A stretch of DNA of 45,495 bases, from assembly GCA_903870065.1 (NCBI GenBank), contig CAIQBN010000375.1, positions 1-45,495 on the forward strand, read 5' to 3'. This document shows, piece after piece, positions 5,740-39,092 of this stretch. The translations under genes and the position numbers were made by a program. The notes below the pieces were generated by a model. The model searched no databases, had not been told where the DNA came from, and worked only from the letters and a program-made list of their open reading frames with translations. Positions within the stretch are counted from its first letter, which is position 1, and every line of letters begins with the position of its first letter. This DNA comes from an uncultured beta proteobacterium. Lineage in GTDB: Bacteria; Pseudomonadota; Gammaproteobacteria; Burkholderiales; Burkholderiaceae_C.

Positions 5740-5753
5740 TTGATGTAGATCAG
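5740..5753. promoter_or_regulatory. candidate FNR/ANR-type box TTGAT-GTAG-ATCAG
   Basis: 9/10 match to TTGAT-N4-ATCAA; a TATAAG -10-like hexamer at 5773-5778 places it near -40. Confidence 0.55.
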
Positions 5754-5890: not shown

Positions 5891-6454
5891 GTGGCCTATT
5901 TCAAAATTCACCATGACAACAAGGAAATCACCGTGACTACAGAAGCAGAGGTCAGGAAAACACCATTTGTGATCGAGTGGCGAGACGGATTCAAAATCGG
6001 CGTAGCTCAGGTAGATCAGGAGCATCGCCACTTGTTTACGCTTGTGCGTGCTCTCAATCTCGATTCCGTGGATCAGACGGTTGAGGAACTTCTGGATTAT
6101 GTGGTCACACATTTTTCCAATGAACAAGAACTGATGGAAAAGAGCGGATACCCTGCGTTTGAGCAGCATTTGAAATTACACGAAGAGTTTGCATCCCAGG
6201 TTGCCGACTTTTTGGGAAGTGGTGCTGTCTGGACGGAAGATCGCATTCAAGAGTTGCGTCGATTTTTGAACAAATGGCTGATCGGGCACATCATGACCCA
6301 TGATTTGCGCTTTGGAAAATGGTTTGCCAGCAAAGGGACACCAGTTGCCCCTCCCGCCAAACCAGAAGCGCACCAGACCGGCTTTTTCGCCCGCCTATTT
6401 GGCCCGAAAAAACACGGACAGTCTGTTCGGGACAATGCACATCGAACGCGTTGA
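5891..6454 (+). CDS. bacteriohemerythrin
   Basis: Hemerythrin metal-ligand pattern (VDQEHRHLF, HFSNEQELM, FEQHLKLHEEF, IGHIMTHDL); GTG start, alternative GTG at 5933. Confidence 0.88.
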   Translation: MAYFKIHHDNKEITVTTEAEVRKTPFVIEWRDGFKIGVAQVDQEHRHLFTLVRALNLDSVDQTVEELLDYVVTHFSNEQELMEKSGYPAFEQHLKLHEEFASQVADFLGSGAVWTEDRIQELRRFLNKWLIGHIMTHDLRFGKWFASKGTPVAPPAKPEAHQTGFFARLFGPKKHGQSVRDNAHRTR

Positions 6455-20948: not shown

Positions 20949-22571
20949 ATGAGTGCCGTACTAGACCACCACGATCATGCCCATGACGACCACCACGACC
21001 ACCATGCGCCGTCGGGTTGGCAGCGTTGGGTATACGCCACGAATCACAAGGATATCGGGACCTTGTATTTGCTGTTCGCTTTCACCATGTTGATGGTCGG
21101 TGGCGTTCTGGCGCTGATTATTCGCGCCGAATTGTTTCAGCCTGGTCTGCAAGTGGTGAATCCGGAGTTGTTCAATCAGCTCACCACGATGCACGGTCTC
21201 ATTATGGTGTTTGGTGCCATCATGCCGGCCTTTGTCGGTTTCGCGAACTGGATGATCCCCCTGCAAATTGGTGCGGCGGACATGGCTTTTGCGCGTATGA
21301 ATAACTTTAGTTTCTGGCTGATGATTCCGGCTGCGGCGATGTTGGTTGGCTCGTTCTTTATGCCCGGAGGTGCCCCTGCCGCTGGTTGGACGCTGTACGC
21401 ACCGCTGACACTGCAAATGGGTCCCTCCATGGATGCCGGCATTTTTGCCATGCACATTCTGGGTGCCAGTTCCATCATGGGTTCGATCAACATCATTGTG
21501 ACCATCCTGAACATGCGCGCTCCTGGCATGACGCTGATGAAGATGCCCATGTTCTGCTGGACCTGGCTGATCACCGCCTACCTGCTGATTGCAGTGATGC
21601 CCGTGTTGGCAGGCGCCATCACCATGACGTTGACCGACCGCCACTTTGGCACCAGTTTTTTCAACCCGGCAGGTGGTGGTGACCCGGTGATGTACCAGCA
21701 CATCTTCTGGTTCTTCGGCCACCCTGAGGTCTACATCATGATTTTGCCGGCCTTCGGCATCATCAGCCAGGTGGTCCCGGCCTTTGCGCGCAAGAAGCTG
21801 TTTGGCTACGCATCCATGGTGTATGCCACATCGTCGATCGCCATTCTGTCCTTCATTGTCTGGGCGCACCACATGTTCACCACCGGAATGCCGGTGACTG
21901 GTCAGCTGTTCTTCATGTACGCCACCATGCTGATCGCGGTGCCCACCGCCGTGAAGATTTTCAACTGGATCGCCACGATGTGGCAAGGCTCCATGACGTT
22001 CGAGACGCCCATGCTGTTTGCAGTGGGCTTTATCTTTGTGTTCACCATCGGCGGATTTACCGGGTTGATGCCTGCGGTGGCGCCCATTGACATCCAGTTG
22101 CAGGACACCTACTACATCGTCGCCCACTTCCACTATGTGCTGGTGGCCGGATCGTTGTTTGCGATGTTCTCTGGCGCCTATTACTGGTTGCCCAAGTGGA
22201 CTGGCGTGATGTACAGCGAAACACGGGGTCAGATTCACTTTTGGTGGTCGATTATCTCTTTCAACATCACCTTCTTCCCAATGCACTTCCTCGGTTTGGC
22301 AGGCATGCCGCGCCGCTACGCGGATTACCCGATGCAGTTTGCAGATTTCAACGCGGTTGCGTCGGTCGGTGGGTTCCTTTTTGGATTTGCCCAGGTGTAT
22401 TTCTTCCTCTTCGTCGTGCTACCAGCCATGCAGGGCAAGGGTGAGAAGGCAGTGCAGAAGCCATGGGAAGCAGCAGAAGGTCTGGAGTGGGAAGTCCCAT
22501 CCCCGGCACCCTTCCATACTTTCGAGACTCCGCCCAAATTGGATGCGACCGCGACCAAGGTCATTGGTTAA
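20949..22571 (+). CDS. coxA: cytochrome c oxidase subunit I
   Basis: [54 protein letters not shown]. Confidence 0.98.
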
Positions 22572-36606: not shown

Positions 36607-36855
36607 TCAGTGTGTGACGAATGTGTAGATGACATCTTCGCTCTCAACCATGTCCAGAATGCTGTCGAGCACCGCTTCGTCGTGGGTGCTGGACCATGTT
36701 TCTTCAGGGTCGCTGGAAAACAGGGGCTCAATTGCCATATCCAGAAACTGATTGTCGGGCAGCTTGATAACCTGCCCGCCCTCGGAGGTTCGAACCAGCT
36801 CCCAGTCCTGCGGTACTGACATTTCGAGTTCAATGGTGACACGTAGCTTTTTCAT
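36607..36855 (-). CDS. hypothetical protein (82 aa)
   Basis: ORF only: MKKLRVTIELEMSVPQDWELVRTSEGGQVIKLPDNQFLDMAIEPLFSSDPEETW. Confidence 0.55.
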   Translation of the reverse strand: MKKLRVTIELEMSVPQDWELVRTSEGGQVIKLPDNQFLDMAIEPLFSSDPEETWSSTHDEAVLDSILDMVESEDVIYTFVTH

Positions 36856-36983
36856 GAGGACTCTCCAGAAGGCTTGATGGTACGGGTTAATGCAGGACAA
36901 ATTGTGGGATTGTTTCGACTGTGATTCCATCCACTCGTAGGCCGTCCAGCCAGCAGGGCGCGGGTGGGTACCAGATCACGAGG

Positions 36984-38294
36984 CTAGTGCGCGAGTTTTT
37001 TGAGTTTGGCCATGTGGTTGCGGTAGACCGCCGCACACGCCAGCAGGTTGCGCAGCAGCCAGCCGTTGGAGACGATCAACCCCGCACCAGCGGCTTGGGT
37101 GAACCATGTTGGCCAGATTACCGCCGACAGTAACAAAGTCAGACTCAGGTAGTGGCTGATGGCCTGCCTGTCAATTTGGTGCTGCGCCAGTACTATTTTC
37201 ATATTGGGCGCATTGAGGCGACCCTCTCCGTGCTCGCGCAAATGCAACCAGACCAAGAAGGGCACGATCTTGTACATCATGCCAATGATCACGGAGGTGA
37301 AGCCCCCGAACAAAACCAGGACACCCAGCAGCATTGGCCAGCCCCGCCATGCGCCAAATGGTGCAAACCAGGCCGCCGCCATCCACACCGCGCATGCAGT
37401 CACGGTGCACAGCATGGCCAGAAACCACAGCCGCCCGGTGGTATCTCGCCTGGCGCGCCGACTGCGCTGCTGCAGGTGCAAGGTCATCACCGCCAGCGCT
37501 GCCGCGATCAGAACAATGCCTGCAGCGAGCGTCGATGCCAGTGGTTCCCAACCCAGCCAATCGGCAGCCGACCAAAGCAGCACAGATGTGCTTGCACTCA
37601 CCGCAAAGCTTCCGGCAAACCAGTGTGGGTAGGCAGGTGTTTGCTGAAACATGGGTACCACCGTCAGGGCGACTGAGCCGACCGTAATCAAGCCCCAGCC
37701 GACGAATCCCCAGGTCAGGTGCAAGTTGGTGAGCAGTGCCAGTGGCAACGTCAAAGACCAGTCCAAGGACAATGCGAGCAGGGCGCCCAGGCTGACAGTC
37801 ACCCCTAGACCGCTTAGTGCCAAGCGCAGTCCGAAAACCACATGGCTCTTGGTTTGTGTTCTGTGCAACGCCAATGCCGCTGCCACAATAAACCCGCCTA
37901 CGCCAATGCATAGCAAGGACGCCGCAATGGTAAACAGCGGGGGCCAGGGTACCAAAAACGCAGCGACCAGGCACAGAGCGCCTGGCGTGATGGTGGTGTG
38001 TACCAGGCCCGCAACACGTGGCGCGCGGGCGATGGACGCGCCCGCCACCACTGGAAGCAATTGTTGAAGGGAACCCAGTACCGATTGCAGTACAAAGCCG
38101 GCGGTGATCAAGTGGGTTAGGGCTAGGGCAGCGGGTGACCAACGCGTCTCGAACAGGGATGGGCCGCTGTAGATCATCAGGCAACCCGCCGCCATGCCAA
38201 ACAACGGGGCTGTCAAAAAGAACCGCATCGGTACTCCGATTGCCGGGGTGCTTTCCAGGGACAGCGTGGCCTGCATCAGGCGGACATGCGCCAA
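36984..38294 (-). CDS. multi-TM membrane protein with conserved-looking intramembrane His (NnrS/heme-copper-oxidase-like)
   Basis: ALTHLITAGFVLQSVLGSLQQLLPVVAG, GLVHTTITPG, NLHLTWGFVGWGLITVGSVALTVVPMFQQTP, IGMMYKIVPFLVWLHL. Confidence 0.7.
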   Translation of the reverse strand: MAHVRLMQATLSLESTPAIGVPMRFFLTAPLFGMAAGCLMIYSGPSLFETRWSPAALALTHLITAGFVLQSVLGSLQQLLPVVAGASIARAPRVAGLVHTTITPGALCLVAAFLVPWPPLFTIAASLLCIGVGGFIVAAALALHRTQTKSHVVFGLRLALSGLGVTVSLGALLALSLDWSLTLPLALLTNLHLTWGFVGWGLITVGSVALTVVPMFQQTPAYPHWFAGSFAVSASTSVLLWSAADWLGWEPLASTLAAGIVLIAAALAVMTLHLQQRSRRARRDTTGRLWFLAMLCTVTACAVWMAAAWFAPFGAWRGWPMLLGVLVLFGGFTSVIIGMMYKIVPFLVWLHLREHGEGRLNAPNMKIVLAQHQIDRQAISHYLSLTLLLSAVIWPTWFTQAAGAGLIVSNGWLLRNLLACAAVYRNHMAKLKKLAH

Positions 38295-38512
38295 ATCAGA
38301 ATTTCAATCGTGCCTTGGGGGGTGATTTCTGTCCGATGTGTAAAGCCCTGCTTTTGCAGCGCGCGATACAGTGGAAAGGGTTCGCGCAAAAGGATCAGTT
38401 TCAGCGTTTGTCCAGCACCTAGCAAATCAAGCGCTTCCATGGTCACGACAAAGGGCTCGGGGGGTTCCATATCGCGCGCATCGATAGTGATGTCGGTCGT
38501 AGTGGTTTCCAT
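38276..38512 (-). CDS. DUF2249 domain protein
   Basis: ITIDARDMEPPEPFVVTMEALDLLGAGQTLKLILLREPFPLYRALQKQGFTHRTE. Confidence 0.85.
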   Translation of the reverse strand: METTTTDITIDARDMEPPEPFVVTMEALDLLGAGQTLKLILLREPFPLYRALQKQGFTHRTEITPQGTIEILIWRMSA

Positions 38513-38516
38513 CGTT

Positions 38517-38969
38517 TCAGTCCCGCTGGTGTGCAATTTTTTCCGCCAATTGGGTTATCAATGCGCCGCGTTGGGCGACGAGCTGCTGGTCACACAGGGG
38601 GTACAGGACGTTTTCTTCTTTGACATTGTGCTGTTGCAGCATGATGAGAAGGGTTTCCGCCTCACCGGCAAAGGCATCCGCATCCCTCTGATCCACCGCA
38701 TGGCGCGCAGCCGCCATCAAATCGCGTAGCTGGAGATGCTCATTTCGCATAACCTGGGTCGGGCCTGCACGCAGGGCTGTCATGGCCTCGAAAGCGGGAA
38801 ACAACAAGCTCTCTTCGGCTTCAAAGTGCTGCAAAACCAATTGTTGAAACTGTGCGAAGGCGGCACTTGCCCGACCCCACTCCTGCTGAAGGACAGCATG
38901 CTCGGCCTCGATAAGAGACCCGTCACACAGCCGATGGTCGCGGGTCAATAGTGCTTGGATGGTGGGCAT
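38517..38969 (-). CDS. hemerythrin HHE domain protein (start approximate)
   Basis: LLTRDHRLCDGSLIEAE, FQQLVLQHFEAEESLLFPAFEA, MRNEHLQLRDLM, LQQHNVKEENVLYPLCD. Confidence 0.88.
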   Translation of the reverse strand: MPTIQALLTRDHRLCDGSLIEAEHAVLQQEWGRASAAFAQFQQLVLQHFEAEESLLFPAFEAMTALRAGPTQVMRNEHLQLRDLMAAARHAVDQRDADAFAGEAETLLIMLQQHNVKEENVLYPLCDQQLVAQRGALITQLAEKIAHQRD

Positions 38970-39092
38970 GAAGGCTGCAAGCAAATGGAAAAGTCCATTG
39001 TGCGGCGACCTGCCCTATCGAACCTTAAACCGTATTAATTCCAGCACCTGGTGAAGTGCTGGCTGTGTGCCGGTTTTGCGGTTGGTAAAAAC

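Follow-up and report, generated by a model that had tools for sequence, protein, structure and literature searches.

A conserved hemerythrin, DUF2249 and heme-copper-oxidase-like membrane protein operon as a putative nitric oxide-handling module

The amounts of nitric oxide (NO) and N2O released by denitrifiers are decided by how they handle NO. In a 45,495-nucleotide stretch of a contig from an uncultured beta proteobacterium of the order Burkholderiales (the whole stretch analysed, hereafter the window), three co-directional genes of the minus strand, running from position 38969 down to 36984, raise the question of what a hemerythrin, a DUF2249 protein and a multi-helix membrane protein encoded side by side could achieve together. 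The initial annotation had read them as an undescribed O2 or NO system made of a diiron protein, a small sulfur-carrier-like protein and a heme membrane protein. All three genes were recovered, with the Pfam domains expected for the two small proteins:

Positions 38517 to 38969, minus strand: hemerythrin-domain (HHE) gene, 150 aa, Pfam PF01814 (E 5.6e-20).
Positions 38276 to 38512, minus strand: DUF2249 gene, 78 aa, Pfam PF10006 (E 2.5e-17).
Positions 36984 to 38276, minus strand: gene of a membrane protein of 430 aa, with 12 predicted transmembrane (TM) helices and heme-copper oxidase homology according to AlphaFold, Foldseek and alignments.

The spacing between the hemerythrin and DUF2249 genes was measured at 4 bp, as had been noted. 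The overlap of 19 bp first reported between DUF2249 and the membrane-protein gene requires an alternative TTG start at 38294; since the alignments of the homologues begin at the ATG of position 38276, only one base is shared with the DUF2249 stop (TGATG). For the hemerythrin gene, the start was placed at the ATG at 38969, an in-frame TTG upstream at 38984 being less likely. The tight coupling of the three genes is confirmed, though with a start other than the one first noted. Downstream of the operon, an ORF of 107 aa without Pfam match occupies positions 36607-36930 of the minus strand.

Is this arrangement peculiar to the window, or does it recur? Searching genome contigs revealed 27 loci with a homologue of the membrane protein, and within the order a match was obtained in 57 of the 200 genomes; three of these were later excluded (the genome of the window itself and two matching at E near 5e-4), leaving 54 carriers among 199 genomes. 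Using profiles of the two small proteins, the order hemerythrin, DUF2249, membrane protein was found to be kept in 45 of the 52 homologous loci that offer 1 kb or more of upstream sequence, and the co-conservation of the three genes is far beyond chance. These ordered loci span the Betaproteobacteria, Competibacter and SUP05/Thioglobus in the Gammaproteobacteria, as well as Sulfurovum and Helicobacter in the Campylobacterota. Variants were also recovered: DUF2249 is missing from loci L010, L039 and L056 and from Cupriavidus necator, and the Nitrospirota loci (L022, L023, L026 and L028) combine DUF2249 and the membrane protein without hemerythrin; next downstream come a gene for Fe-S assembly (PF01883 in L026) and one for a 417-aa protein that matches nothing in Pfam. 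Distant homologues belonging to the window's own family (L066-L070; 27-31% identity) adjoin tandem DUF2249 or sit, rearranged, between DUF2249 and hemerythrin. On the megaplasmid pHG1 of C. necator H16 (L073, 7545-10030), a hemerythrin, the membrane homologue and a Crp/Fnr regulator are flanked by NnrS and nosZ, this homologue being full-length (E 1.6e-84) and annotated 'hypothetical protein'; the locus tags of the hemerythrin and membrane-protein genes there are H16_RS32790-H16_RS32785.

The nature of the membrane protein was addressed through its predicted fold, as the window protein matched no Pfam or NCBIfam model and a PHROGs search returned no match. The AlphaFold2 model, produced from the window and locus sequences, has 12 helices (mean pLDDT 93.7) in what is predicted to be the subunit I fold of the heme-copper oxidase (HCO) superfamily. 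In the Foldseek comparison with the PDB, the best 50 matches were all chains of this superfamily, with CcoN on top (TM 0.70, E 7.1e-7) and cNOR at TM 0.61, and CcoN was also the sole match to the family in a profile search of PDB sequences. Furthermore, the protein consists of three homologous four-helix units: hhalign joined EU1 to EU2 (E 3.7e-5) and EU2 to EU3 (E 8e-4), EU1 to EU3 alone being not significant, and the alignments to CcoN and COX1 are offset by repeat units. The initial annotation had found the protein reminiscent of both NnrS and HCO subunit I. Some family members match COX1 weakly (3e-8) and 5 of 53 match NnrS (PF05940) weakly (best E 8.2e-4); the window protein itself has no NnrS match, the gathering score not being reached, and a profile-profile comparison with NnrS based on at most 13 sequences gave no significant match (E 0.0078, probability 5%).

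Four intramembrane histidine motifs had been singled out in this protein. Conservation was counted over 57 aligned membrane-protein sequences, invariant meaning where sequence is present, and residues H61, H99, H192 and H351 are numbered from the TTG start:

Positions 38112 to 38114, minus strand: codon of H61 (H55 from the ATG), TM2, motif LTHLITAG, invariant.
Positions 37719 to 37721, minus strand: codon of H192 (H186 from the ATG), TM6, motif NLHLTWGF, invariant, at a helix depth equal to that of H61.
Positions 37242 to 37244, minus strand: codon of H351 (H345 from the ATG), in TM10 at its cytoplasmic end, motif KIVPFLVWLHL after GMMYKIVPF, kept in 54 of 57 sequences.

The fourth, H99 of LVHTTIT, is kept in just 34 of the 57 and drops out of the set, and the most conserved block of the protein is GMMYKIVPFLxWxH. 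The loop charges fit a cytoplasmic N-terminus; in this orientation H61 and H192 are equally deep near the periplasm, and H351 lies where TM10 reaches the cytoplasm. In offset repeats, H61 falls on the second His of the HVH motif of CcoN and H192 on the TM2 heme His of CcoN, both of which serve as heme ligands in CcoN. From these sequence patterns, a single bis-His heme held between TM2 and TM6 would be the natural reading. The ligands of a CuB/FeB centre were not found in the alignment: TM6 has one conserved His, TM7 none and TM10 no HxH, so that the binuclear centre is missing, and an oxidase or NO reductase (NOR) of known type was consequently rejected.

The DUF2249 protein also matches TusA (PF01206, E 1.3e-8), a family in which the CPxP motif provides the catalytic cysteine. 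In the window protein this position reads EPPEP, and no cysteine is conserved across the aligned DUF2249 homologues; the sulfur-carrier reading of the initial annotation is therefore unsupported on mechanistic grounds, and we rejected a TusA-type carrier. As regards the literature on this domain, we take COG4309 to be DUF2249. In the genome comparison of Rodionov et al. (PMC1274295), COG4309 is co-transcribed with norB and belongs to NsrR/NnrR regulons; in haloarchaea, DUF2249 genes are induced under denitrification, and one DUF2249 forms part of a fusion with an Fe-S carrier NTPase (PMC11218638); and the Thermus DUF2249 proteins DrpA and DrpB affect nitrate respiration (PMC6282519).

For the hemerythrin, the proposal of a diiron protein was upheld. 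Besides its PF01814 domain, the window protein has the whole diiron ligand set (H12, H48, E52, H78, H114 and E118), residues conserved over the 54 aligned sequences, and, in DHxxCD, a cysteine (C15) that is near-invariant in them. The same composition of four His and two Glu is known from YtfE (PMC9052748). Its best NCBIfam matches are likewise YtfE/RIC, at 31.8 bits for a cut-off of 254, and the Pfam search found no ScdA_N domain, so the protein was ruled out as RIC/YtfE/DnrN. These nearest matches, together with the Fe-S assembly protein directly downstream in Nitrospirota and the haloarchaeal fusion to an Fe-S carrier NTPase (PMC11218638), would nonetheless suit a repair of iron-sulfur or other iron centres under nitrosative stress, in which the hemerythrin would supply the iron, a role suggested for RIC/YtfE, and would be partnered by DUF2249 and the membrane protein. 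We consider such a repair function improbable, as the low RIC score and absent ScdA_N speak against it and it leaves an HCO-type membrane protein unexplained. Another hemerythrin domain is encoded in the window (5999-6310, plus strand), and the host genome holds 15 in total.

The genomic company of the operon points to denitrification, and the co-occurrence with nir genes that the initial annotation had suggested checking was found. A strong cytochrome-d1 (NirS-type) domain is present in 38 of the 54 carriers versus 16 of the 145 non-carriers (Fisher p 8e-16), and NnrS in 50/54 versus 51/145 (p 3.5e-14), both p values ignoring the shared ancestry of the 199 genomes. Within 20 kb of the membrane-protein gene, a d1 gene occurs in 15 carriers and an NnrS gene likewise in 15, and 31 of the 54 show d1, NnrS, ccoN or several of these. 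The proximity of d1-domain genes (15/54) could indicate a role in maturing cytochrome cd1 nitrite reductase or in heme d1 trafficking, but we hold this to be highly improbable, as a strong d1-domain gene is lacking in 16 of the 54 carriers and both Helicobacter and Sulfurovum have the operon. The same 16 genomes and its carriage by Helicobacter imply that the operon is not strictly tied to denitrification.

A role in O2 handling was also weighed, in which the hemerythrin would bind low O2 and the membrane protein help to supply O2 or electrons to cbb3 respiration, as proposed for Mhr of Pseudomonas aeruginosa, a hemerythrin that binds O2, is regulated by Anr and is linked to cbb3 (PMC12403760). 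The Rhodocyclales loci lie in a ccoG-fixH...hemN region, with NnrS and a Crp/Fnr regulator likewise nearby, and in at least four genomes ccoN is no more than 15 kb away. However, CcoN-type matches are near-universal in the order (174 of 200 genomes), and their co-occurrence was therefore dropped as evidence, whereas the association with NirS and NnrS is specific; the ligand set of the hemerythrin is moreover of the YtfE type. O2 handling thus appears possible, if rather unlikely.

Regulatory signals were sought upstream of the hemerythrin gene, where an FNR/DNR-type palindrome, TTGATNNNNATCAA (TTGAY-N4-RTCAA), is matched at 8 or more of 10 positions in 37 of 47 loci, many of them close relatives, against a background of 6.7% in mononucleotide-shuffled sequences. 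These boxes lie mostly at -62 to -94 ahead of the hemerythrin domain, and the window has a weaker site there:

Positions 39025 to 39038, minus strand: degenerate palindrome TTAATACGGTTTAA, matching 7 of 10 positions, where homologous operons carry the FNR/DNR-type box.

Across the whole window, 29 FNR-like boxes (at most two mismatches) were counted for 16 expected, a number reached by 0 of 100 shuffles, with one-mismatch sites at 5740, 11113 and 13149. The operon could itself be a regulatory sensor of NO, nitrate or O2 controlling denitrification genes, as proposed for Thermus DrpA/DrpB, whose deletions change nar expression (PMC6282519), and Crp/Fnr regulators stand next to it in C. necator and Rhodocyclales. 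This remains very doubtful, given that it encodes no DNA-binding, kinase or cyclase domain and that a 12-TM HCO fold is unusual in sensors.

The host genome (88.7% complete) encodes two NirS-type genes, NnrS beside a Crp/Fnr gene, ccoN and a nosZ-type gene that stays under the TIGR04244 cut-off, and a COX1 scan found no evident cNOR or qNOR in it. It also holds an HCO subunit I (contig C5, 8340-9635; L060, 1165-2871, minus strand) with a COX2-like protein directly upstream and a motif, FGHSSQQ, that can be read as placing Gln at the active-site Tyr position of oxygen reductases. Such a substitution is the signature of eNOR (PMC8756737), which makes this protein a candidate eNOR in a nirS-bearing genome. 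In addition, a divergent pair of HCO subunits I shares WGGGHVxQ (contig C5, 704-1891, L061; contig C321, 1472-2632, L062), and no NCBIfam model names their HCO part; one adjoins a cytochrome b/FlpD/ferredoxin fusion, and the other, with a C-terminal TPR domain, lies beside a ResB/CcsA-like pair. In the window, a strong COX1 match (539 bits; 21051-22379, plus strand) is probably a conventional CtaD.

How new is such a system? The proposal that it was undescribed proved only partly right. Pei et al. (2014) reportedly named membrane proteins of this kind HCOH, for heme-copper oxidase homology, and suggested that they bind one heme and have a role in NO detoxification. The haloarchaeal study (PMC11218638) associates DUF2249 with the HCO superfamily, citing Pei et al. 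2014, and with hemerythrin, citing another paper, and the pairing of COG4309 with norB had been described as well (PMC1274295). The HCOH class and its association with DUF2249 and hemerythrin are already known, and the operon belongs to this class, which is known but uncharacterised in function; our literature search found no experiment on any member of the membrane-protein family.

Considering the genes, the predicted fold, the conservation, the gene order, the co-occurrence with nirS and NnrS and the FNR/DNR-type boxes, we propose with moderate confidence that the three genes form one functional unit, a putative accessory NO-handling module of denitrifying and microaerobic bacteria with an NnrS-like, HCOH-type heme membrane protein. 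The latter would be a catalytically reduced relative of HCOs and NO reductases, arranged as three repeats of four helices, whose invariant TM2 and TM6 histidines, equally deep near the periplasmic face, may hold one heme of b type, in line with what has been proposed for proteins resembling NnrS. The YtfE-type diiron site of the cytosolic hemerythrin would bind NO (or nitrite or O2), and DUF2249 could serve as an adaptor docking this diiron protein onto the conserved cytoplasmic end of TM10 (GMMYKIVPF...H). The membrane heme might give electrons to the diiron site, or receive NO-derived signals from it, and NO would be captured or turned over at the membrane. Within this scheme, what we infer is that heme is bound, that NO is the substrate, that DUF2249 acts as an adaptor and which way the electrons flow. 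A novel type of NO reductase or NO trap made of two parts, in which an HCO-descended heme protein devoid of its own active site would feed electrons via DUF2249 to a cytosolic diiron protein doing the NO chemistry, seems unlikely. As some loci have no DUF2249 and those of Nitrospirota no hemerythrin, an electron path that strictly requires all three parts does not apply everywhere. The NO-handling module proposed here is widespread, occurring in 54 of 199 genomes of the order and in other classes and phyla, strictly organised and apparently regulated like denitrification genes, with a membrane part for which no Pfam or NCBIfam model exists.

Set against known systems, the operon combines familiar parts in its own manner. 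As a putative heme protein of the membrane within NO and denitrification regulons, the membrane protein resembles NnrS, to which it is also linked by a similar distribution and the weak matches of a few members; the window protein and the members individually shown nevertheless stay under the PF05940 cut-off, the conserved motifs are others, and a separate NnrS gene exists in 50 of the 54 carriers. CcoN and cNorB resemble it in fold and in the aligned heme-b ligand histidines, but the window protein has neither the CuB/FeB triad nor the high-spin heme His, and where canonical HCOs show a TM2/TM10 histidine arrangement, the invariant residues here are in TM2 and TM6. The hemerythrin has the domain and the four His and two Glu of YtfE/RIC/DnrN, yet it lacks ScdA_N, falls far under the RIC cut-offs and has the conserved DHxxCD cysteine instead. 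DrpA/DrpB and COG4309, the latter earlier found adjoining norB, offer the same domain in a denitrification context, whereas the DUF2249 of the window stands alone as a single domain, its stop codon overlapping with the start codon of the membrane-protein gene. The three-unit HCOH proteins share with the window family 12 TM helices in three four-helix repeats, the HCO fold, few conserved histidines, a denitrification context and the association with DUF2249; compared through their description in citing papers, they differ in that both fully invariant histidines of the window family lie in TM2 and TM6.
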